NCBI GenBank assembly: GCA_019348395.1
Contig: JAHWJN010000047.1
Coordinates: 1-8,744, forward strand
Reading direction: 5' to 3'
Source of the DNA: Chloroflexota bacterium
Lineage (GTDB): Bacteria; Chloroflexota; Limnocylindria; QHBO01
DNA length: 8,744 nt
Position numbers and translations under genes: made by a program. The notes under the pieces were generated by a model. It saw nothing but the letters and a program-made list of their open reading frames with translations, did not search any database and was not told the DNA's origin. This document shows positions 1-8,744 of this stretch, piece after piece (the stretch's first letter is position 1; each line of letters begins with the position of its first letter).

Positions 1-1596
1 GTAGCCGCGGTTCACCGACTCCGCCAGGATCTCGTCCTTGCTGAAGAATCCGGCGAAGATCGGGATGCCGGCCAGCGCCAGCGAGCCGATGAGCATCGTG
101 ACGTGGGTCCACGGCATCTTCGCGCGCAGGTTGCCCATGAAGCGCATGTCCTGCTCGCCGCCCGCTCCGTGGATCACCGAGCCGGAACCCATGAACAGCA
201 GGCCCTTGAAGAAGCCGTGGCTGACGAGGTGGAAGATCGCGGCGGTCCACGCGCCGATGCCGAGCGCGAAGAACATGTACGCCAGCTGGCTCACCGTCGA
301 GTAGGCGAGCACCTTCTTGATGTCGTTCTGGGTCAGCGCGATGGCCGCGGCGAAGATGGCGGTGAAGACGCCGACACCGGCCACGACCCACATCGCCGCC
401 GACGACTCGGCGAAGATCGGGTTCGCCCGGGCGACCAGGTAGACCCCGGCGTTGACCATGGTCGCGGCGTGGATCAGGGCGCTGACGGGGGTGGGCCCCT
501 CCATCGCGTCGGGCAACCAGACGTGGAGCGGGAACTGGGCGCTCTTGCCCACCGCTCCGGCGAAGAGGAGAAGGGCGATGACGGTGATCGTGCCCTCGTC
601 CAGGGTGCCGATCCGGGCGAAGACCTCGCGGAACGACAGCGTCTCGAGGTTGACCCAGATCATCATGATGCCGAGGCCGAACCCGAAGTCGCCGACGCGG
701 TTGACGACGAATGCCTTCTTCGCGGCACCTGCCGCCGAGGGCTTCTTGTACCAGAAGCCGATGAGCGCGTAGCTGCACAGGCCCACCGCCTCCCAGCCCA
801 CGTACAGCATCAGGAAGTTGTCGCCCAGGATCAGCAGCAGCATGCTGAACATGAACAGGTTCAGGTAGGCGAAGAACCTCCAGAACCCGCGGTCGCCGTC
901 CATGTAGCCGATGGAGTAGACGTGGACGAGGAAGCCGACCGTGCTGACGACGAGCAGGAGCATGGCGGTCAGCTCGTCGACGAGGAAGCTGATGGTGATG
1001 GTGAAGTCGCCCGAGGCGATCCACTCGTAGACGGTGACCTCGAAGGTCTGCCCGCCGAAGATCACCTGCACGAAGGCCCACATGCTGATCAGCCACGCGA
1101 CGCCGACCAGCGCAGTCGGGACGATCCAGGACCGATAGCGCGGCCGCTCCGCGCCCGGCGCCACGTGGCCCGCCTGCCCGATGCCGTCGTTGTGGGCGGC
1201 GGGGATCACCCCGGCCGCGCCCTCCGCATTGGCGAGGTCGTCGGCGTGGCCGGCGTGCGGGCTCGTCGCCCGCTGCTCCTCCTCGGTCGGGATCGATCGG
1301 AAGCCGCGATCGTCGATCGGCGGGTGCGGGTCGTCGCTGTGATCCGCCTCCGCGACGCCATGCGCGTCGGCGTACTCCTCGCCCGCGTCGTGGGCATGGC
1401 GCTGGGCCGCGTCCTCGGCGTCCTTCGGCCTGTGCGCCGCCGCCTCGTCGCCGTGCGGCGCATCGTGGTCGCCCGGACCCTCGTGTCCGCCGTGGTGGCC
1501 GTGGCCCGGAACGTGGTCGAGGCGTGGCCCGACGAGCACGGCGAACAGGAAGCCGGCGAGCGGCAGCGCGGGGATGAGGGCGATCAGCAGCTCCAT
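1..1596 (-). CDS. nuoL: NADH-quinone oxidoreductase subunit L (NuoL), 3' end cut by window edge
   Basis: Antiporter-like, proton-translocating membrane subunit of complex I. 532 residues are visible and the C-terminal part, including later helices and the lateral helix, runs off the left edge. NuoL hallmarks are GWEAVGLCSYALIGFWY (residues 267-283, the conserved TM5 Glu is E269), GAVGKSAQFPLHVWLPDAM (348-366, TM7 Lys is K351), GPTPVSALIHAATM (367-380), DIKKVLAYSTVSQLAYM (425-441), FHLVSHGFFKGLLF (455-468, TM8 Lys is K464) and GFFSKDEIL (516-524). The ATG at 1594-1596 begins MELLIALIPALPLAGF, matching the usual NuoL first helix, 11 nt after the nuoK stop, with GGAG overlapping the last nuoK codons. 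Oddity: about 120 extra His- and acid-rich residues lie between helix 1 and helix 2 (separate entry). The protein would therefore be well over the usual 610-650 residues. Family assignment is certain. Confidence 0.96.
   Translation of the reverse strand, partial: MELLIALIPALPLAGFLFAVLVGPRLDHVPGHGHHGGHEGPGDHDAPHGDEAAAHRPKDAEDAAQRHAHDAGEEYADAHGVAEADHSDDPHPPIDDRGFRSIPTEEEQRATSPHAGHADDLANAEGAAGVIPAAHNDGIGQAGHVAPGAERPRYRSWIVPTALVGVAWLISMWAFVQVIFGGQTFEVTVYEWIASGDFTITISFLVDELTAMLLLVVSTVGFLVHVYSIGYMDGDRGFWRFFAYLNLFMFSMLLLILGDNFLMLYVGWEAVGLCSYALIGFWYKKPSAAGAAKKAFVVNRVGDFGFGLGIMMIWVNLETLSFREVFARIGTLDEGTITVIALLLFAGAVGKSAQFPLHVWLPDAMEGPTPVSALIHAATMVNAGVYLVARANPIFAESSAAMWVVAGVGVFTAIFAAAIALTQNDIKKVLAYSTVSQLAYMFFALGIGAWTAAIFHLVSHGFFKGLLFMGSGSVIHGAGGEQDMRFMGNLRAKMPWTHVTMLIGSLALAGIPIFAGFFSKDEILAESVNRGY
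1141..1524 (-). other. His/Asp/Glu-rich insertion within NuoL
   Basis: Residues about 25-152 of NuoL form a hydrophilic low-complexity stretch with 17 histidines between residues 28 and 144 (for example GHGHHGGH at 31-38), many Asp, Glu, Ala and Gly, and no cysteine. It separates helix 1 (about 3-23) from helix 2 (about 158-180). In E. coli NuoL these helices are joined by a loop of only a few residues. The reading frame is open throughout and resumes as normal NuoL, so this is an in-frame expansion, not a frameshift. By homology to complex I structures the loop should face the cytoplasm. Composition suggests a disordered, possibly metal-binding segment; this is inference. Confidence 0.85.
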
Positions 1597-1607: not shown

Positions 1608-1913
1608 CTACTCCTTGAGGTCCGAGTACTGATCCACCTCGGCGGTCTGACGGGTGCGGATGATGGCGATGACCAGCGCCAGGCCGACCGTCACCTCGGC
1701 CGCGGCGACGGCCATGATCATCAGCGCGAATACCGCGCCACCACTCGATGGATCCGGCAGGAACGCGTTGAAGGCGACCAGGCTCAGGTTCACCGCGTTG
1801 AACATGAGCTCAATGCTGATGAGCATGAGGATCGCGTTGCGGCGTGCCATGAATCCGAAGGCACCGATGCCGAACAGCAGCGTCGAGACGAGCAGGTAGC
1901 CCTCGATGCCCAT
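1608..1913 (-). CDS. nuoK: NADH-quinone oxidoreductase subunit K (NuoK)
   Basis: Small membrane subunit of complex I, related to MrpC, contributing to the proton path between NuoJ and the antiporter-like subunits. The protein has 101 residues, the standard length, and three membrane helices. The two conserved membrane glutamates are visible: E35 in LISIELMFNAVNL (31-43) and E73 in MAVAAAEVTVGLAL (67-80). The ATG at 1911-1913 overlaps the nuoJ stop in a TGATG arrangement, implying translational coupling. The frame stays open upstream to 2102, but that extension would overlap nuoJ and has no NuoK homology, so I reject it. The charged tail (AEVDQYSDLKE) ends 11 nt before nuoL. Confidence 0.96.
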   Translation of the reverse strand: MGIEGYLLVSTLLFGIGAFGFMARRNAILMLISIELMFNAVNLSLVAFNAFLPDPSSGGAVFALMIMAVAAAEVTVGLALVIAIIRTRQTAEVDQYSDLKE

Positions 1914-2422
1914 CAGTTCGCTCGCTCGTCCTCTTCCGGCCGTCGCGCCAGGTAGATGGCGCCGATGATCGCGGCCAGGAGGAGCAGGCTGATGATCTCG
2001 AAGGGGAGCGCGAAATCGGTCAGGAGCGTCAGCGCAATGGTCTCGACCGCGGCGTACACGGCCTCGGCCGCCATCCCCCAGTCGGTTTGGACGACCGCCC
2101 ACCCAACGGTCCCCACGATTGCCAGGGCGACCACGATCGCGATCGGCAGCTGGCGGTGAAACGGCGCGAGCAGGTTCGCATCACCGGCCTGGGTCAGCAT
2201 GATCGCGAAGAGGATCAGGACGCTGATCGCGCCGAGGTAGATGAGCACCTGCGCGGCCGCCACGATCGGAGCGCCGAGCAGCGCGTACATGCCGGCGAGT
2301 GACCCGAAGCAGACCATCATCGCAACGGCGGAGTGGATGATGTTGCGCAGCGTGACGACGGCGATCCCGGCCCCCACCACGCCGACGGCGAGCAGGAAGA
2401 AGAGGACGCTGGAAATGTCCAG
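1913..2422 (-). CDS. nuoJ: NADH-quinone oxidoreductase subunit J (NuoJ), probable CTG start
   Basis: Membrane subunit of complex I with about five helices, packing against NuoA, NuoH and NuoK. The segment around AAAQVLIYLGAISVLILF is the typical NuoJ core helix (the family pattern is AAAQVIVYAGAIMVLFLF). The first standard start codon in frame is GTG at 2378-2380, but using it removes the front half of helix 1. Reading from CTG at 2420-2422 gives MDISSVLFFLLAVGVVGAG, which restores a full first helix, and a good Shine-Dalgarno (ACGGAG, 2432-2437) lies 9 nt upstream. An in-frame stop at 2453-2455 bounds any longer choice. With CTG the protein has 169 residues, normal for NuoJ. It is the first gene of the nuoJKL block and overlaps nuoK by one base. 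The family call is firm; the start is inferred. Confidence 0.9.
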   Translation of the reverse strand: MDISSVLFFLLAVGVVGAGIAVVTLRNIIHSAVAMMVCFGSLAGMYALLGAPIVAAAQVLIYLGAISVLILFAIMLTQAGDANLLAPFHRQLPIAIVVALAIVGTVGWAVVQTDWGMAAEAVYAAVETIALTLLTDFALPFEIISLLLLAAIIGAIYLARRPEEDERAN

Positions 2423-2541: not shown

Positions 2542-3045
2542 ATGGGGACCGAGATCCGCCGCATCCGTGCCGACGAGTGGCCGGAACTGCGTCGCCTACG
2601 GCTCGAGGCCCTGCATGATGCACCGCTCGCGTTCGGCTCCACGTACGAGCGTGACGCCGCCATGGCGGACGTCGACTGGCAGCGCTGGGCCGGTGAGGCT
2701 GCGGCGTGGCGAGACCAGGTTATCTTCATCGCCGCGACCGACGGCCGATGGGTGGCGATGGCGCGCGGGTCGGTGAGCCGCGACGAGTCAGGTGCGGCAT
2801 ACCCCACTGCCGTCTACGTGGATCCCGCCTTCCGTGGTCGCGGCCTCGGTCGTGCCGTCAGCGCGAGGGTCATCGCCTGGGCCCGCGAGCGAGGCGTGCG
2901 ACGATTGCTCCTCCACGTGGCCGACTGGGACGTCGCCGCTCGTCGAACCTATGAGTCGCTGGGCTTCGTGACGACCGGCGCCACCGAGCCGCTCCCGCAC
3001 GATCCTTCAATCACCGAGCACGCGATGGTCCTCGATCTGCGCTGA
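2542..3045 (+). CDS. GNAT-family N-acetyltransferase
   Basis: A 167-residue acetyl-CoA-dependent N-acetyltransferase, substrate unknown. The N-terminal half resembles the start of many GNATs (IRRIRADEWPELRRLRLEAL, 5-24). The acetyl-CoA pyrophosphate loop is clear: VYVDPAFRGRGLGRAV (91-106), containing the RGRGLG form of the Q/RxxGxG/A motif. It is followed by an amphipathic helix, a strand (RLLLHV, 121-126) and the C-terminal motif-B region AARRTYESLGF (132-142). RimI-like members have Asn where Asp130 stands here. Length is normal for a stand-alone GNAT. It is the only gene on the plus strand, sitting between the two blocks of the nuo locus and diverging from nuoJ. No membrane segment or signal peptide is visible. 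Nothing ties it to complex I except position; a role in modifying a small molecule, an antibiotic or a protein is equally possible. Confidence 0.9.
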   Translation: MGTEIRRIRADEWPELRRLRLEALHDAPLAFGSTYERDAAMADVDWQRWAGEAAAWRDQVIFIAATDGRWVAMARGSVSRDESGAAYPTAVYVDPAFRGRGLGRAVSARVIAWARERGVRRLLLHVADWDVAARRTYESLGFVTTGATEPLPHDPSITEHAMVLDLR

Positions 3046-3283: not shown

Positions 3284-5680
3284 CTAGCGGGTGGGGCGCT
3301 CCCGGTCGGACATCTCGAGGATGTCGAGCATCGGCAGGTCGCGCTGGTACTCGCTGAACTCGAACTCGGGTCCGCAGCGCAGCGCGTCGTACGGGCAGGC
3401 GTCGGCGCAGATGCCGCAGAAGATGCAGCGGCTGATGTCGAGCTGGTACGTCTCGAGAATGCGTGGTCGCGGCATGAGCGCCCCGACCGGGCAGGTCTCG
3501 GCGCATCGTCCGCAGCTCACGCACGGCGTCTCGTTGAGCGAGACGTAGTCCGGCGTGGTGACCAGCGAGTCGAAGCCCTTGCCGATGAAGTCGTAGCAGC
3601 CGGCGCCGACGATCTCCTTGCAGACCTGGGCGCAGCGCCCGCAGTCGATGCAGCGGGAGTAGTCGCGCAGGATGAAGCTGTGCGTCTCGTCGCGGCCGTA
3701 GCCGTGGTTGACGCCGACGTACGGGTTGTCCTGGATCGAGCGCTCGTCGATCGCCATGTTGAGCGTCGTCTCGTACTCGATCGCCGCCTCGCGCAGGTCG
3801 CAGTGGCCGATCGCCTCGCAGGTGCACTGCAGGCAGCGTGACGCCTCGGCCATGGCCTGGTCGCCGGTGTAGCCAAACTCGTACTCGTTGAAGTTGTCGG
3901 ACCGATCCTCCGCCTCCAGCTTGCCCATCACCGCGCGCGGCTCCTTCACATCGTCGGTGAAGGGCACGATGGTAAGGAAGTTCGGCTGCGGCTCGGTGAC
4001 GACGCGGCGGATCTGCGGGTCGTCGAGGTCGTGGCCACGCAGCCAGTAGTCCATCGCGTACGAGGCCCGGCGGCCCTCGCCGATGGCCTCCACCACGGTG
4101 GCGGCGCCGGTCCGCACGTCGCCCGAGGCGAAGACCTTCGGGACGTCGGTGCGGAAGATGTGCTCCTCGGCGACGAGCGTGCCGCGCCGCGACACCTCGA
4201 GGTTCGAGCGGATCTCCTCCGGCTCGGAATCGATCCACGACAGGTCCGGTCCCTGGCCGATGGCGCCCAGTACCGTGTCGCACTCGATGATGAACTCGGT
4301 GCCGGGCATCGGCTCCGGGCGACGGCGGCCCTGGTCGTCGGGCTCGCCCAGCTTCATGCGCTGGAACTCGACGCCGGTGACCTTGTTGCGCTCGTCGGTG
4401 ACGATGCGGGTCGGCGAGGCCTGGAAGATGAGCCGCGCGCCCTCCTCGGTCGCCTCGTGGGCCTCGTCGGCGGCGGGCATGTCCTTGAGGTCGCGGCGGT
4501 ACACCAGCGTCACCTCGGCCGCGCCCTGCCGCACGCTGGTGCGGGTGCAGTCGATGGCGGTGAACCCGCCGCCGATCACGACCACGCGCGCTCCCTTCAG
4601 CCGCGGGATCGGGATGCCGCGGGTCGAGTTGTAGAGGTTCTCGAGCGCGTTGACCATGCCGTCGGCGTCCTCGCCCGGGATGCCGAGCTCGTTCGGCTTG
4701 TAGCAGCCGATGCCGACGTAGATGGCGTCGTACTCGTCGATGATGTCGGCGAGGTGGAAGTCGCGGCCGAGCCGCATGTTCGGCTTCAGCTGCGCGCCGA
4801 GCTCCCACACGTGATTGAGCTCACGGTCCATCCAGCCCTTGGGCAGCCGGTACTGCGGGATGCCGTACCGCAGCATGCCGCCCTGCTCCGGCTCGGCCTC
4901 GAAGACGTCGCACTGGTGTCCGCGCAGCTGCAGGTAGTAGGCGGCGCTCATGCCCGCGGGCCCCGCACCGATGACCGCCACGCGGCGCCCGGTCGGCGGA
5001 TCCTTCGGCCACGGAATGGGGGCCGGCGCGTCGACCTCGAGCACGCGATCGGCACAGTAGCGGTGCGAGTCGCGGATCGCGATCGCGGTGTCGACCTCTT
5101 CCCGCCGGCAGTGCGTCTCGCACGGGGCGGGGCAGACGCGCCCGAGGATCGCCGGGAACGGCAGCGAGCGCTTCAGGATGCGCGTCGCCTCCTCCCAGTT
5201 GCCGAGCGTGTTCTGCTTCAGGTAGCCGGGGATGTCGACGCGGGTCGGGCACTTGAACTGGCACGGCGGCAGGCAGTAGGCATCGTGGTCGCTGAAGATC
5301 AGCTCGAGGACCATGCGGCGGTTCTCGATGACCCGCTCGGAGTGGGTGGTGATGACCATCCCCTCCTCGATGGCGGTCCCGCACGAGATCGGCGTGTCGT
5401 CGCGCCCCTCGACCTCCACGGCGCAGATGCGGCAGGCGCCGTACGGTGCCAGCTTCGGCTCGTAGCACAGGGTCGGGACCTCGATGCCCAGGACGCGGCA
5501 GGCCTGGAGGATGGTCTGGCCCTCCTCGGCCTCCACCTGCTGCCCGTTGATCGTCACGCTGATCTTCCGCGTGCCGGGCACCATCGGCCACATGGGGGTG
5601 TAGTCGGTGGTCCGGCCGTCGCCGGGTCCCGTGCCGTTCCCGTTCCCCGCCGAGTGTCCGTTCGTGTTCGCGAAGCCCAT
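3284..5680 (-). CDS. NuoG-head / GltD FAD-NAD(P)H oxidoreductase / NuoG- and NuoI-type ferredoxin fusion
   Basis: A 798-residue flavo-iron-sulfur protein, probably the electron-input subunit of this complex I. Domains in order: Gly/Asn-rich tail (1-38); NuoG-type [2Fe-2S] domain with C72-x10-C83-x2-C86-x13-C100; GltD-type cysteine region (H132, C136, C140, C144, then GRVCPAPCETHC at 180-191); FAD fold VAVIGAGPAGMSAAYYL (234-250); NAD(P)H fold VVVIGGGFTAIDC (366-378) followed by VYRR (393-396), which in GltD relatives often goes with NADPH; closing FAD motif FASGDVRTGAATVVEAIGEG (517-536); C616/C619/C621/C627 site; two NuoG-like [4Fe-4S] motifs (C677-C687, C720-C730); a NuoI-like end (C752-C762). 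The NuoG molybdopterin domain is absent. The ATG at 5678-5680 follows nuoF by 20 nt with AGGA upstream; M30 is an alternative start. SfrB/NfnB-type proteins share the GltD core. Electron direction is inferred. Confidence 0.9.
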   Translation of the reverse strand: MGFANTNGHSAGNGNGTGPGDGRTTDYTPMWPMVPGTRKISVTINGQQVEAEEGQTILQACRVLGIEVPTLCYEPKLAPYGACRICAVEVEGRDDTPISCGTAIEEGMVITTHSERVIENRRMVLELIFSDHDAYCLPPCQFKCPTRVDIPGYLKQNTLGNWEEATRILKRSLPFPAILGRVCPAPCETHCRREEVDTAIAIRDSHRYCADRVLEVDAPAPIPWPKDPPTGRRVAVIGAGPAGMSAAYYLQLRGHQCDVFEAEPEQGGMLRYGIPQYRLPKGWMDRELNHVWELGAQLKPNMRLGRDFHLADIIDEYDAIYVGIGCYKPNELGIPGEDADGMVNALENLYNSTRGIPIPRLKGARVVVIGGGFTAIDCTRTSVRQGAAEVTLVYRRDLKDMPAADEAHEATEEGARLIFQASPTRIVTDERNKVTGVEFQRMKLGEPDDQGRRRPEPMPGTEFIIECDTVLGAIGQGPDLSWIDSEPEEIRSNLEVSRRGTLVAEEHIFRTDVPKVFASGDVRTGAATVVEAIGEGRRASYAMDYWLRGHDLDDPQIRRVVTEPQPNFLTIVPFTDDVKEPRAVMGKLEAEDRSDNFNEYEFGYTGDQAMAEASRCLQCTCEAIGHCDLREAAIEYETTLNMAIDERSIQDNPYVGVNHGYGRDETHSFILRDYSRCIDCGRCAQVCKEIVGAGCYDFIGKGFDSLVTTPDYVSLNETPCVSCGRCAETCPVGALMPRPRILETYQLDISRCIFCGICADACPYDALRCGPEFEFSEYQRDLPMLDILEMSDRERPTR
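3311..3460 (-). other. C-terminal half of NuoI, fused to the GltD protein
   Basis: Residues about 741-790 of the fusion protein match the second half of NuoI: a short strand before the motif (ETYQLDIS), C752-x2-C755-x2-C758-x3-C762-P, then PEFEFSEYQRDLPMLDILEM (771-790). The NuoI family pattern there is DFE-x2-EY-x-R-x-DL-x4-EDL. The part of NuoI that normally precedes it is found instead at the N-terminus of the NuoE fusion. Generic ferredoxin ends lack the FEFSEYQRDL block, which is why I prefer a NuoI origin. Confidence 0.75.
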
Positions 5681-5686
5681 CGGTTC
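5673..5686 (-). repeat. 14-nt direct repeat around a start codon, copy 1
   Basis: Minus-strand GAACCGATGGGCTT spans the start codon of the GltD-fusion gene and is identical to 7885-7898 at the start of the NuoI/NuoE fusion gene. Both proteins therefore begin MGF. The match ends abruptly on both sides. Confidence 0.7.
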
Positions 5687-5700
5687 CTACTGTAGCGGTG

Positions 5701-7065
5701 CTATGCGTCCGATGCCGGAGCCAGCCCATCGAGCGGCTCGAGCAGCGGGGGCAGATCGGTGCCGCGGCACGCCCCGGCCAGGCACTCGCCGCGCTCGGCG
5801 TGCGCCCGGTATTCCTCGGGGAAGCGGTCGAGCGTGGTGAGGATCGGCCCGGATGCGAGACGCTCCAGCTTGCAGAGGGCGGTGTCGCTGACCTTGCGAG
5901 ACAGCTCGCGCAGGAGGGCGATGTCGTTCGGCCGCGGCGTCGCCGCCAGGATGCGGTCGAGCGCCTCGCGCAGGCGGAGGGTGCCGATGCGGCACGGTAC
6001 GGCCTTGCCGCATGCCTCGCGCGCACTGAAGTCGACGAAGAAGCGGGCGGTGTCGACCATGCAGGTCGACGTGTCGGTGACGAGGACCGAGCCCGAGCCG
6101 ATGATCGCACCGGCACTCTCGAGCGACTCGTAGTCGTACGGCAGGTTCAGCGACCCCGCGTCGATGGCGCCGCCACCCGGCCCACCGACGAACAGGGCCT
6201 TGGTCGTGCCCGTCCCGCCGCCGGCCATGTCGAGCAGATCGAGCAACGACGTGCCGAGCGGCACCTCGATGAGGCCCGGCTGCGCGACCCGGCCCATGAG
6301 CGTGACGAGCTTCGTGCCGTGGCTTCCCTCGGTGCCGGTCGAGGCGAAGGCGTCGGCCGAGTGGGCGACGATCCACGCCACGTGGGCCAGGGTCTCCGCG
6401 TTCTGGACCACCGTCGGAACGTCATGGAGGCCGCGCGTGGAGGGAAACGGCGGACGGATGGCCGGCATGCCGCGATCGCCGGCCAGCGCGTTGATGAGCG
6501 CGGTCTCCTCGCCGGCGACGTACGCGCCCGAGCCCTCCCACACGCTGACCTGGACGGACGTGTCCGTGCCGAGCACGAGGTATCCGGCCAGGTGCGCGTC
6601 CGTCGCCTCTGCCGCGGCGCTCCGCAGTCGCTCGGCCGCCTCGGTCCAGTCGCGGCGGACGGCGACGATCGCCTCCGAGGCACCGACCGCGTAGGCCGTG
6701 ATGAGCAGGCCCTCGAGGACGAGGTGCGGGTGGCCCTCCGCCAGGGCGCGGTCTCCGAGCGCGCTCGGATCGGCTCCCATCAGGTTCGCCACCACGATCC
6801 TGCGCTCGGCCGGCTGCTCGCGCGCCGCGCGCCACTTCTCGCCGGTCGGGAAGCCGGAGCCGCCGCGGCCGCGCAGGCCGGCCGCCTCGATCTCACCGAT
6901 GACCTCCTCGGGGGCCAGCTTCGTGACGGCCCGTTCGAGCGCCGCGTACGAGCCGTGCTGACGAGCGCTGGACAGGCTGGTGGGATCCACGCGGCCGATG
7001 TCGGTGAGCAGCCGTCGCTCGCCGCCGGACAGGATCCGGATCTGTGGGGAAAGGCCGGCGGTCAT
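5701..7065 (-). CDS. nuoF: NADH-quinone oxidoreductase subunit F-like protein (NuoF) with altered cofactor sites
   Basis: NuoF normally binds FMN, NADH and the [4Fe-4S] cluster N3. The 454-residue length is normal. Kept: GLRGRGGSGFPTGEKW (63-78), GSGAYVAGEETALINALAG (178-196), RPPFPSTRGLHDVPTVVQNAETL (starting at 204), GAIIGSGSVLV (319-329) and Cys ligands C352, C358 and C398. Changed: the N3 motif reads CGKAVPC, so the second ligand is Ala355; and the FMN/NADH loop, usually NADExEPG, reads NLMGADPS (94-101). The ATG at 7063-7065 overlaps the preceding stop as TGATG. The frame is open up to 7731, but that extension overlaps the previous gene and lacks homology. The gene has no internal stop or frameshift, so it is maintained, possibly as a structural or altered redox subunit. 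Canonical NADH oxidation by this chain is doubtful. Confidence 0.9.
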   Translation of the reverse strand: MTAGLSPQIRILSGGERRLLTDIGRVDPTSLSSARQHGSYAALERAVTKLAPEEVIGEIEAAGLRGRGGSGFPTGEKWRAAREQPAERRIVVANLMGADPSALGDRALAEGHPHLVLEGLLITAYAVGASEAIVAVRRDWTEAAERLRSAAAEATDAHLAGYLVLGTDTSVQVSVWEGSGAYVAGEETALINALAGDRGMPAIRPPFPSTRGLHDVPTVVQNAETLAHVAWIVAHSADAFASTGTEGSHGTKLVTLMGRVAQPGLIEVPLGTSLLDLLDMAGGGTGTTKALFVGGPGGGAIDAGSLNLPYDYESLESAGAIIGSGSVLVTDTSTCMVDTARFFVDFSAREACGKAVPCRIGTLRLREALDRILAATPRPNDIALLRELSRKVSDTALCKLERLASGPILTTLDRFPEEYRAHAERGECLAGACRGTDLPPLLEPLDGLAPASDA

Positions 7066-7892
7066 CAGCTGGACGATCCGGCGCTGACGGCGTGGCGCTC
7101 GTGGAGCAGGTGACGGGCCTGGTCGGCATCCACCGGCCCGTAGACGAGCGTGTCGACCCGGAGGGCCGGGCTGATCGCGCCGGCGCCGATGTCGGTGCCC
7201 GTCTCGAGGGTGAACCGCCCGTCGGGGGTCGTCTCCCCGGCCCGCACGCCCAGCTCGTCCTCGAGCACGCGCAGGATGCGGTCGCCTCCCGCGAACCGGC
7301 ACGAGGCGCAGTCGCAGACGGTGACGAGGTGGCCCTCCGTCGGGAGGAGCCGGAAGCCGCCGAGGCTCGCCGCGCCGAAGACCTGTGCCCAGTGGATGGT
7401 GAGGCGGTCGCTGATGGCGCGAAGCGCCTGCTCCGGAAGGTAGCCGTAGCGATCCTGCACGGCGCTGAAGACGGCGACCAGCGCCTCCGGCCGGCCGCCG
7501 TAGGCATCGACCGTCTCGTTGACGAACGCGGTGTCGACCGCCTCGTCCCAGCGGGCCGGGTTCCGCATCGGCCGCGCCGGAAGGCCGGCCCGGCGGTAGG
7601 CGTTCGGATCCTTGCGCTCGTCGTAAATCTCCGGCATCCCGTACCGGATGCGGTTGCCCTGCGAGTCGAAGCCGCTCATATCGATCGCCTCGACGGGGCA
7701 GACCTGCGCGCACTGGAAGCAGACCTCGCACTTGTGCTCCCCGAAGGGGTCGTAGATCAGGTCGAGCCGGCCGCGCCAGCGGTCGGGGATCTCCGGGCGC
7801 TGCTCGGGGTACTGGCGCGTGACCTTCGGGCTGAAGAAATTCTTGAAGGTCGTCGCCATGCCCTTCGCGATGCCGCTGCCGGGAAAGCCCAT
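7065..7892 (-). CDS. nuoE: Fusion of N-terminal half of NuoI with NuoE (thioredoxin-fold ferredoxin)
   Basis: A 275-residue protein in the usual nuoI position, just after nuoH. Residues 1-94 match the first half of NuoI: a short amphipathic start (GIAKGMATTFKNFFSPKVT), QYPEQRPEIPDRWRGRL (27-43) and one [4Fe-4S] motif C55-x2-C58-x2-C61-x3-C65-P. The second NuoI motif is missing here and appears in the GltD fusion. Residues about 114-265 match NuoE: helical front (ALVAVFSAVQDRYGYLPEQA, 137-156), VFGAASLGGFRLLP (171-184), C193-x4-C198, then GETTPDGRFTLE (219-230). The second ligand pair, usually CxGxC, reads DIGAG (234-238), so two of four [2Fe-2S] cysteines are gone. A strong GGAGG stands 11 nt before the ATG; the stop overlaps the nuoF start. 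The split NuoI interpretation is inferred from order and motifs. Confidence 0.88.
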   Translation of the reverse strand: MGFPGSGIAKGMATTFKNFFSPKVTRQYPEQRPEIPDRWRGRLDLIYDPFGEHKCEVCFQCAQVCPVEAIDMSGFDSQGNRIRYGMPEIYDERKDPNAYRRAGLPARPMRNPARWDEAVDTAFVNETVDAYGGRPEALVAVFSAVQDRYGYLPEQALRAISDRLTIHWAQVFGAASLGGFRLLPTEGHLVTVCDCASCRFAGGDRILRVLEDELGVRAGETTPDGRFTLETGTDIGAGAISPALRVDTLVYGPVDADQARHLLHERHAVSAGSSS

Positions 7893-7903: not shown

Positions 7904-7910
7904 CCTCCTA
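7904..7910 (-). promoter_or_regulatory. Strong Shine-Dalgarno overlapping the nuoH stop
   Basis: Minus-strand TAGGAGG contains the nuoH stop (TAG) and a near-perfect anti-16S match (GGAGG), 11 nt before the next ATG. This couples nuoH translation to the NuoI/NuoE fusion and fixes its start. Confidence 0.7.
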
Positions 7911-8744
7911 CAGGTCCAGCACCACCACGGCGATGGCCGTGATGAACAGGTTCACGAGGGCGAGCGGCAGGAGTACCTTCCAGGCCATGCCCATGAGCTG
8001 ATCCACGCGCACCCGCGGCAGCGTCGCGCGAAGCCACACCGCGACCCCCACGAAGATGTAGGTCTTCAGGAAGAACCAGAAGATCCCGTACAGCGTGCCT
8101 CCGAAGCCGTCGAGCTGCGCCGGGAAGGGCCAGGGGGCCAGCCATCCGCCGAAGAAGAGGCTGATGAGGATGCCGCTCATGATGAAGAGGGCCACGTACT
8201 CGGCGAAGAAGAAGAATCCGAACCGCATGCCGGAGTACTCGGTGAAGGGCCCGGCCACGAGCTCGGAGTCCGCCTCCACCATGTCGAACGGCGTGCGGTT
8301 GATCTCGGCCAGGCTGGCGATGTAGAAGATGCCGAGCCCGATGGGCTGCCAGATGAACAGCCAGCCGTTCGCGAGCTGCCAGCCGATGACCTCGCTGAAG
8401 CTCAGGGTCCCGGCCAGCACCACGGCGCCGACGATCGACAGGGTCAGCGGGATCTCGTAACTGACCATCTGGGCCGCGCTGCGCAGCCCGCCGAGCAGCG
8501 AGTACTTGTTGTAGCTCGCCCAGCCGGCGACGAGCAGGCCGACCACCGACAGGCCCAGGACGGCGAAGAAGTAGACGATGCCGATGTTGAAGTCCGCCGC
8601 GATGGCGCCGGGCGCGAACGGCATGACGAGCATGCTCATCGCCGCGGCCATGTACACCATCCACGGGGCGAGGGTGAAGGTCGCCCGATCGGCCTGGTCG
8701 GGGACGGTGTCCTCCTTGGCGAGGACCTTGAAGCCGTGGATCGT
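7908..8744 (-). CDS. nuoH: NADH-quinone oxidoreductase subunit H (NuoH), 5' end cut by window edge
   Basis: Membrane subunit at the junction of the peripheral and membrane arms, forming part of the quinone chamber. 278 residues are visible; the frame runs off the right edge with HGFKVLAKEDTVPDQADR, matching the NuoH early loop (family pattern DGIKLLTKED). The true start is therefore outside the window, and the internal ATG at 8658-8660 is not the start. Further hallmarks are KYSLLGGLRSAAQMVSYEIP and the NuoH signature EINRTPFDMVEADSELVAG, followed by FTEYSGMRFGFFFFAEY. About seven hydrophobic helices are visible, ending in VNLFITAIAVVVLDL. The stop lies 15 nt before the NuoI/NuoE fusion. The protein looks fully functional, in contrast to the altered NuoE and NuoF downstream. 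Confidence 0.97.
   Translation of the reverse strand, partial: TIHGFKVLAKEDTVPDQADRATFTLAPWMVYMAAAMSMLVMPFAPGAIAADFNIGIVYFFAVLGLSVVGLLVAGWASYNKYSLLGGLRSAAQMVSYEIPLTLSIVGAVVLAGTLSFSEVIGWQLANGWLFIWQPIGLGIFYIASLAEINRTPFDMVEADSELVAGPFTEYSGMRFGFFFFAEYVALFIMSGILISLFFGGWLAPWPFPAQLDGFGGTLYGIFWFFLKTYIFVGVAVWLRATLPRVRVDQLMGMAWKVLLPLALVNLFITAIAVVVLDL

Follow-up and report, generated by a model that had tools for sequence, protein, structure and literature searches.

What becomes of a respiratory complex I when one of its iron-sulfur subunits is cut in two? An 8,744-nucleotide stretch of DNA from a Chloroflexota bacterium of the class Limnocylindria raises this question. The stretch, which we call the window, is one complete contig (JAHWJN010000047.1) from a genome (GCA_019348395.1) of 1.38 Mb in 211 contigs, 59% complete. 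Its minus strand carries, in this order, nuoH, a first fusion gene (fusion 1), nuoF, a second fusion gene (fusion 2), nuoJ, nuoK, and nuoL. Fusion 1 joins the first half of NuoI to NuoE in one uninterrupted open reading frame (ORF; 7065–7892, minus strand, 275 amino acids (aa)); fusion 2, likewise one uninterrupted ORF, encodes successively a [2Fe-2S] domain, GltD, a HydA/NuoG-type dicluster, and the second half of NuoI. The original prediction, made from these letters alone, had proposed that the nuoI of the nuoH-nuoI-nuoJ slot is split by an E-F-GltD cassette, its halves being fused in frame to NuoE and to the GltD protein; the two single ORFs, the profile matches, and the gene order of the class loci bear this out. 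The chemistry of dicluster ferredoxins implies that two such chains would need to dock. We propose that the NuoI halves do so and thereby rebuild clusters N6a and N6b, in a complex I whose likely electron source is NADPH at the GltD flavin; we give this reading a probability of about two in three. The fusion genes and the nuoF between them are made up as follows.

7638..7892, minus strand: NuoI first half, fusion 1 residues 1-85, with C55-C58-C61-C65 (TIGR01971 model positions 1-74; four cysteines invariant in 35 rows)
7539..7637, minus strand: fusion 1 linker, with invariant Y90 and R93 (alignment A2, 35 rows)
7068..7538, minus strand: NuoE-like domain, fusion 1 residues 119-275, without the second N1a cysteine pair
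5701..7065, minus strand: nuoF-like gene, 454 aa, with a HydB/StnB/NfnB-type core lacking the extra Bfu clusters
3284..5680, minus strand: fusion 2, 798 aa, StnC/NfnA-type GltD-NuoG-like subunit plus NuoI second half
5321..5569, minus strand: fusion 2 N-terminal [2Fe-2S] domain, C72/C83/C86/C100 (PF13510, E 1.1e-20; cysteines invariant)
4031..5320, minus strand: Fer4_20 plus the GltD FAD and NAD(P)H Rossmann domains, with R278 (StnC R239) and H206 at the place of StnC K170
3464..3685, minus strand: HydA/NuoG-type dicluster, motif A C677-C695 and motif B C720-C730 (cysteines invariant in alignment A1)
3287..3463, minus strand: NuoI second half, fusion 2 residues 740-798, with C752-C755-C758-C762 (TIGR01971 model positions 71-112; cysteines invariant)

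A single base is common to fusion 1 and nuoF (TGATG), and 15 bases separate nuoH from fusion 1 and 20 bases nuoF from fusion 2. The NuoI model (NCBIfam TIGR01971, 121 positions, cut-off 113.05 bits) matches fusion 1 residues 11-84 over positions 1-74 (E 6.5e-16) and fusion 2 residues 740-781 over positions 71-112 (E 1.6e-14). The two matches are complementary and their junction falls between the two CxxCxxCxxxCP motifs, i.e., the [4Fe-4S] motifs between which the break had been predicted. By this profile, the second half starts near residue 740, and the first half ends nearer residue 85 than residue 94. When each half was scanned as an isolated piece, NuoI ranked first among the NCBIfam models listed, as the original prediction had expected. 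An artificial join of residues 1-85 and 740-798 scored 113.8 bits as a single match over model positions 1-112 of 121, i.e., just over the cut-off; intact NuoI proteins from two other Chloroflexota scored 157.9 and 134.6 bits in the same scan. The whole 798-aa fusion 2 reached 53.5 bits with this model and its 64-aa end piece 51.1. The remainder of fusion 2, with its motif B, thus contributes little, and so the missing first half is that of fusion 1.

Two hand-picked alignments of 35 rows each (A1 for fusion 2 and A2 for fusion 1) show that all eight NuoI cluster cysteines are invariant. Fusion 1 has 19 invariant columns, 16 of which are in its 74-residue NuoI part, two in the linker, and one in the 157-residue NuoE part. 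We also considered chance, an assembly error, and a one-off event as explanations of the split, and rejected them: the first motif is kept in 36/36 class loci and the second in 29/29, i.e., in all those reaching the end of fusion 2 (7/36 stop short).

Is there an intact nuoI elsewhere? In its own genome (59% complete), the profile search retrieved the two halves, at 59.5 and 47.5 bits, and no single chain over the cut-off. Given this completeness, it is the class-wide result that carries the absence of NuoI. The class set comprised 61 genomes (our own and relatives, from genus to class level), 30 of them at least 90% complete and many of them fragmented; none of the 61 reached the NuoI cut-off. 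Counted by hand among the matches listed, both halves were found in 46 of them, one in 11, and none in 4. In a sample of 301 genomes of the phylum, the 195 over the cut-off were all placed among the 260 outside the class, and the 41 class rows, separated by hand, gave a best E-value no better than 2.3e-16. Judged by these profiles, the split NuoI is a class trait of Limnocylindria. Several of the nearest named proteins carry the label 'Candidatus Limnocylindria bacterium' at their source; two are labelled Angelobacter and Binatia. A related locus titled Steroidobacteraceae (L047, JAICUY010000042.1) has genes 72-88% identical to this Chloroflexota locus and is likely mislabelled.

The gene order recurs as well. 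The nearest nuo gene upstream of fusion 1 is nuoH in 28/36 class loci, and the other eight all belong to one family (f2), in which nuoB and nuoD lie upstream of fusion 1 (L074, L076) and nuoH is on a separate contig in 6/6 of the genomes searched among these eight. Of the 28 loci with nuoH upstream, 19 continue past fusion 2 with nuoJ as their following nuo gene; eight of the remaining nine end within or just past fusion 2, and L051 has none inside its 1.5 kb. With nuoH upstream and nuoJ downstream in most class loci, the nuoH-nuoI-nuoJ slot is likely the original site of the split cassette. Some loci and proteins are irregular. Fusion 2 of L070 (genome G041) lies in two overlapping frames (7172-8941 and 8400-9716), perhaps through a sequencing error; in P0148, P0162, and P0219, the ferredoxin end of fusion 2 is joined to a NuoJ domain (PF00499). 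Some f3 genomes (L024, L030, L036) have short NuoI/HycF-like ferredoxins whose first motif is irregular and, in genome G023, the contig with such a NuoI/HycF-like ferredoxin also carries a divergent NuoH-like gene.

Does the layout exist outside the class? We searched 101 genomes of the phylum (13 class, 88 others) with fusion 2 as the query, a match being full-length when it extended to query residue 780 or beyond. Such relatives were found in 12/13 class genomes (in the 13th, the gene is cut by the contig end) and in 12/88 others. All ten outside-class loci examined (10 fetched of the 12) contain the pair of fusion 1 and fusion 2: nine have nuoB, fusion 1, nuoF, and fusion 2 consecutively, and the gene order in L125 is nuoA-nuoB-nuoD-nuoH-fusion 1-nuoF-fusion 2. 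One genome (G076, L128) carries fusion 2 in two tandem copies (8419-10827 and 11062-13470). Among the named matches of fusion 1 are Dictyobacter alpinus and D. arantiisoli, from a cultured genus of the Ktedonobacteria. All ten outside-class genomes also have an intact NuoI match (E 1.2e-38 or lower), six being marked over the cut-off and the other four judged by E-value. NuoH has two high-scoring copies, and nuoD a second one, in 8/12 outside-class genomes, and in seven of these eight the second nuoH adjoins a split-type nuoD. Outside the class, the split layout thus appears by these matches to coexist with a second complex I, of canonical type, that has its own intact nuoI. The original prediction had called for a search of relatives for an intact nuoI, which gave none over the cut-off in the class, and for the same gene order, which recurs inside and outside it. 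It had also treated an intact nuoI elsewhere in the genome as grounds for abandoning the split; this would not hold outside the class, where the intact gene is that of the second complex.

The NuoD proteins of these loci group together. In a tree of 22 hand-picked sequences, 18 split-type rows are separated from four canonical ones by a 100/98 branch, and a deletion of about 25 residues is common to the 18 relative to these four. The split-type rows form two subtypes, i.e., f1/f3/f5, which includes the window, and f2/f4/outside-class. The simplest reading of these sequences is a single origin of the NuoI split, likely by in-frame insertion of a nuoE-nuoF-GltD cassette into nuoI.

What would such an insertion have brought? 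The nearest solved chains to fusion 2 are 9bov_A (5.3e-169), 8oh5_C, which is StnC (2.1e-152), and 9n5u_A (5e-143); it aligns to 9bov_A over residues 38-762 and to 8oh5_C over 39-763. The layout of StnC and of the Nfn-Bfu A subunit, i.e., NuoG-like Fe-S domains around a GltD FAD/NADPH domain, is found here, and by homology the nearest counterpart of the GltD:NuoI chain is StnC/NfnA, the subunit with which transhydrogenases oxidise NADPH. In the available text of PMC10482914, StnC is a fusion of GltD and NuoG: its GltD domain holds the FAD that NADPH reduces, and electrons travel along a cluster chain to StnB. K170 is a ligand-like residue beside cluster C7, the [4Fe-4S] cluster adjoining FAD, and is replaced by a glutamate in NfnB. 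In A1, all cysteines of the [2Fe-2S], Fer4_20, C616-C627, A, B, and NuoI-half motifs are invariant, as is R278, the counterpart of StnC R239. The lysine itself is absent, the position of K170 being occupied by H206 (window 5063-5065), invariant in the 35 rows. No class genome of 15 reached the NuoG cut-off (TIGR01973), and 4/14 controls did. The best class match (130.5 bits, in G023) is restricted to model positions 1-201, and at the fusion 2 locus the model matches with its first 95-134 positions plus pieces within 97-224. The GltD:NuoI chain seems, on these profile matches, to replace NuoG.

On the other hand, the NuoE and NuoF parts of the cassette are eroded. The NuoE part of fusion 1 retains two of the four N1a cysteines in the window; in the f2 and outside-class rows of A2 its thioredoxin part is truncated and the N1a cysteines are gone, and they are also missing in 2/4 aligned f3/f5 rows. 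NuoF was aligned in 48 split-type rows, one without the column of the FMN motif and three without that of N3. The aspartate of the N-x-D-E FMN motif is replaced by Y, M, or I in 47/47 rows (M in the window), and the second N3 cysteine is lost in 25/45, including the window, which keeps three of four. The set expected of a canonical NuoEFG (four N1a and four N3 cysteines, N-x-D-E) is incomplete in the window. Its 454-aa NuoF has only the 51K, SLBB, and NADH_4Fe-4S domains, without the extra clusters B2-B5 of a Bfu B subunit. According to the available text of PMC9304861, the non-bifurcating BfuB homologues are without B2-B5, and their electrons pass through B1. We take N3 as the equivalent of B1, which is damaged in the subtype of the window. 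As read from these residues, the cassette is something other than an ordinary module for NADH input. Of the original prediction, the split, the fusions, and the eight cysteines all stand, and no NuoI reached the cut-off in the 61 class genomes searched. It had missed what the alignments seem to indicate, i.e., a GltD chain of StnC/NfnA type in the place of NuoG, beside an eroded NuoE and NuoF.

Electrons would then follow another route. As in StnC, NADPH would reduce the FAD of the GltD domain; electrons would pass to the [4Fe-4S] and [2Fe-2S] clusters of the GltD chain, then to the A-B dicluster, to N6a/N6b, to N2 in NuoB, and finally to quinone. Of the four cysteines of N6a, and likewise of N6b, three would come from one chain and the fourth from its partner, and the first NuoI half with its NuoE tail, together with NuoF, would act mainly as a clamp tying the GltD module to the membrane-side module. 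A broader proposal, which we hold at even odds, is that the whole class respires through such an NADPH-fed complex I, in which an Stn-like GltD module displaced NuoG, NuoE and NuoF became clamps, and the two-chain N6a/N6b makes the entry point and the wire assemble together.

Several observations weigh against the docking of the two halves and the NADPH feed, and the first concern the halves themselves. In AlphaFold models of the single chains, the NuoE and GltD parts are well predicted, but pLDDT is below 50 for nearly all of fusion 1 residues 22-114 and fusion 2 residues 564-798. Fer4_7 matches fusion 2 residues 720-766, spanning motif B and the NuoI-half motif (motif C); in L124, the two motifs are also covered by one alignment of the NuoI model (57 bits, model positions 41-111). 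Motifs B and C could, from this pattern, form a dicluster inside fusion 2. They would then pair as a complete ferredoxin, the fusion 1 half holding at most one cluster and none being shared between the chains; a spacing of 22 residues (C730 to C752) and the matches of both motifs to dicluster models are consistent with it. However, in the HydA/StnC relatives, which align without motif C, motifs A and B make a pair of their own. Moreover, the end piece gains about 63 bits in NuoI score from the fusion 1 half and about 2 from the remainder of its own chain, and the NuoI half is the most conserved part of fusion 1. We consider a B-C pairing very improbable.

The NuoF rows are also divided. All four N3 cysteines are kept in 20/45 of them, i.e., in 8/8 f2 loci, the f4 locus, 10/10 outside-class loci, and one f3 locus; an aspartate stands at the position of StnB D186 in 47/47; and the glycine loop and the GEET/GEES motif are mostly retained (L068 is without the loop). 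With these features, NADH may still enter in some members. The complex could even accept both NADH and NADPH, NuoI being rebuilt and NuoF still oxidising NADH through FMN and N3. Such a dual supply has to contend with the three-cysteine N3 of the other 25 rows, the window among them, with the loss of the N-x-D-E aspartate in every row, and with the incomplete N1a ligands, and it seems unlikely to us. As for the docked, NADPH-fed complex itself, the NuoG cut-off is strict, as its low rate in the controls indicates, and the preference for NADPH is suggested by homology and by the YRR motif, which we read as a mark of NADPH.

Where would the NADPH come from? PntB was found in 15/15 class genomes searched and, in the phylum sample, in 12/13 class genomes versus 23/88 others; it could offer the class a route from NADH to NADPH. 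It is missing from our own 59% complete genome, and among the matches listed for the 12 outside-class genomes with full-length fusion 2, it appears only in G127. Its presence in those 23 other Chloroflexota, and the fact that class membership counts as one event, make the co-occurrence a weak support. The complex might also run in reverse, quinol and the proton-motive force driving NADP+ reduction for biosynthesis. Stn was assayed in both directions, according to the available text of PMC10482914, and outside the class an adjoining canonical complex I could oxidise NADH. In the class, however, this is the sole complex I seen (one high-scoring NuoH in 16/16 genomes searched, with weaker divergent copies in two), so no other would be left to oxidise NADH, and PntB could itself make NADPH from NADH. 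Reverse operation is thus disfavoured, and we regard it as improbable.

For the membrane side of the complex, the window holds the following genes.

7908..8744, minus strand: nuoH, directly upstream of fusion 1, its 5' end cut by the contig end (PF00146, E 1e-94)
1913..2380, minus strand: nuoJ (PF00499, E 4e-33)
1608..1913, minus strand: nuoK (translation matches the nuoJ-adjacent ORF in 18 class loci; named by this position and by its match to the canonical nuoK of L137)
1..1596, minus strand: nuoL, its 3' end cut by the contig end (translation matches NuoL-type and, weakly, NuoM/N-type ORFs in class loci)

The window itself holds no nuoD. In relatives (the 22-row alignment, 18 rows being split-type, read by eye), NuoD retains HP-S/A-THG and DY/EY, which we take to be the quinone-site motifs, and no NiFe motifs were seen in the 18 split-type rows, as expected of a complex I rather than a [NiFe] hydrogenase. 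NuoL presents, at residues 29-160, an insertion of about 100 residues rich in His and Asp/Glu after its first helix, with 16 His within these 132 residues; it is present in the three f1 relatives checked and absent from one canonical and one f2 NuoL. Between fusion 2 and nuoJ, a GNAT acetyltransferase gene (2542-3045) runs on the plus strand, opposite to the nuo genes; other f1 loci include some with a longer gap here, reaching about 2.6 kb in L056.

Complex I is usually regarded as an enzyme of NADH (or of ferredoxin or F420H2), with its N6a/N6b ferredoxin in one chain. Our literature search, conducted mostly without full texts, yielded no two-chain NuoI combined with an NADPH module of GltD type, and we call the layout a new variant of complex I. 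If the reading is true, it would show how input modules are swapped in evolution and provide a natural test of the dispensability of NuoF; the redox balance predicted for this bacterial class, which we know here from assembled genomes only, would change as well. The presence of a related fusion 1 in Dictyobacter makes the system testable.

How does it compare with known systems? The locus and its relatives share with canonical complex I (NDH-1, NuoA-N) the NuoA, B, D, H, J, K, L, M, and N-type subunits, the order of nuoH, the nuoI slot, and nuoJ, the quinone-site residues of NuoD, and the cluster motifs of NuoI; they differ in a NuoI made of two chains, no NuoG over the cut-off, a NuoD about 25 residues shorter, a NuoE without the full N1a ligands, and an altered FMN motif in NuoF. 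StnABC and Nfn-Bfu (NfnABC; 8oh5, 9bov, 9n5u) are electron-bifurcating transhydrogenases. They likewise have a GltD-NuoG-type subunit with an NAD(P)H-FAD site, a HydB-type B subunit, and a NuoE-type C subunit; here, however, the B subunit lacks the extra clusters, a His replaces the C7 lysine, a NuoI half takes the place of the FdhF-like domain, and a membrane arm is attached. Nuo-Bfu, in the available text of PMC9304861, is a predicted 14-subunit complex I with BfuABC, e.g., in Geobacter, in which a Bfu-like module also replaces NuoEFG; its predicted input is NADH plus ferredoxin and the main text has no occurrence of NuoI, whereas our locus has a GltD-type A subunit and lacks the set of Bfu clusters. 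Finally, the insertional fission of mitochondrial cox2, as presented in the available text of PMC5374615, is alike in that the gene of a respiratory subunit is split by an insertion into complementary genes. That subunit belongs to an animal oxidase, whereas each NuoI half is fused to a partner as well, and the two would hold Fe-S clusters in common.

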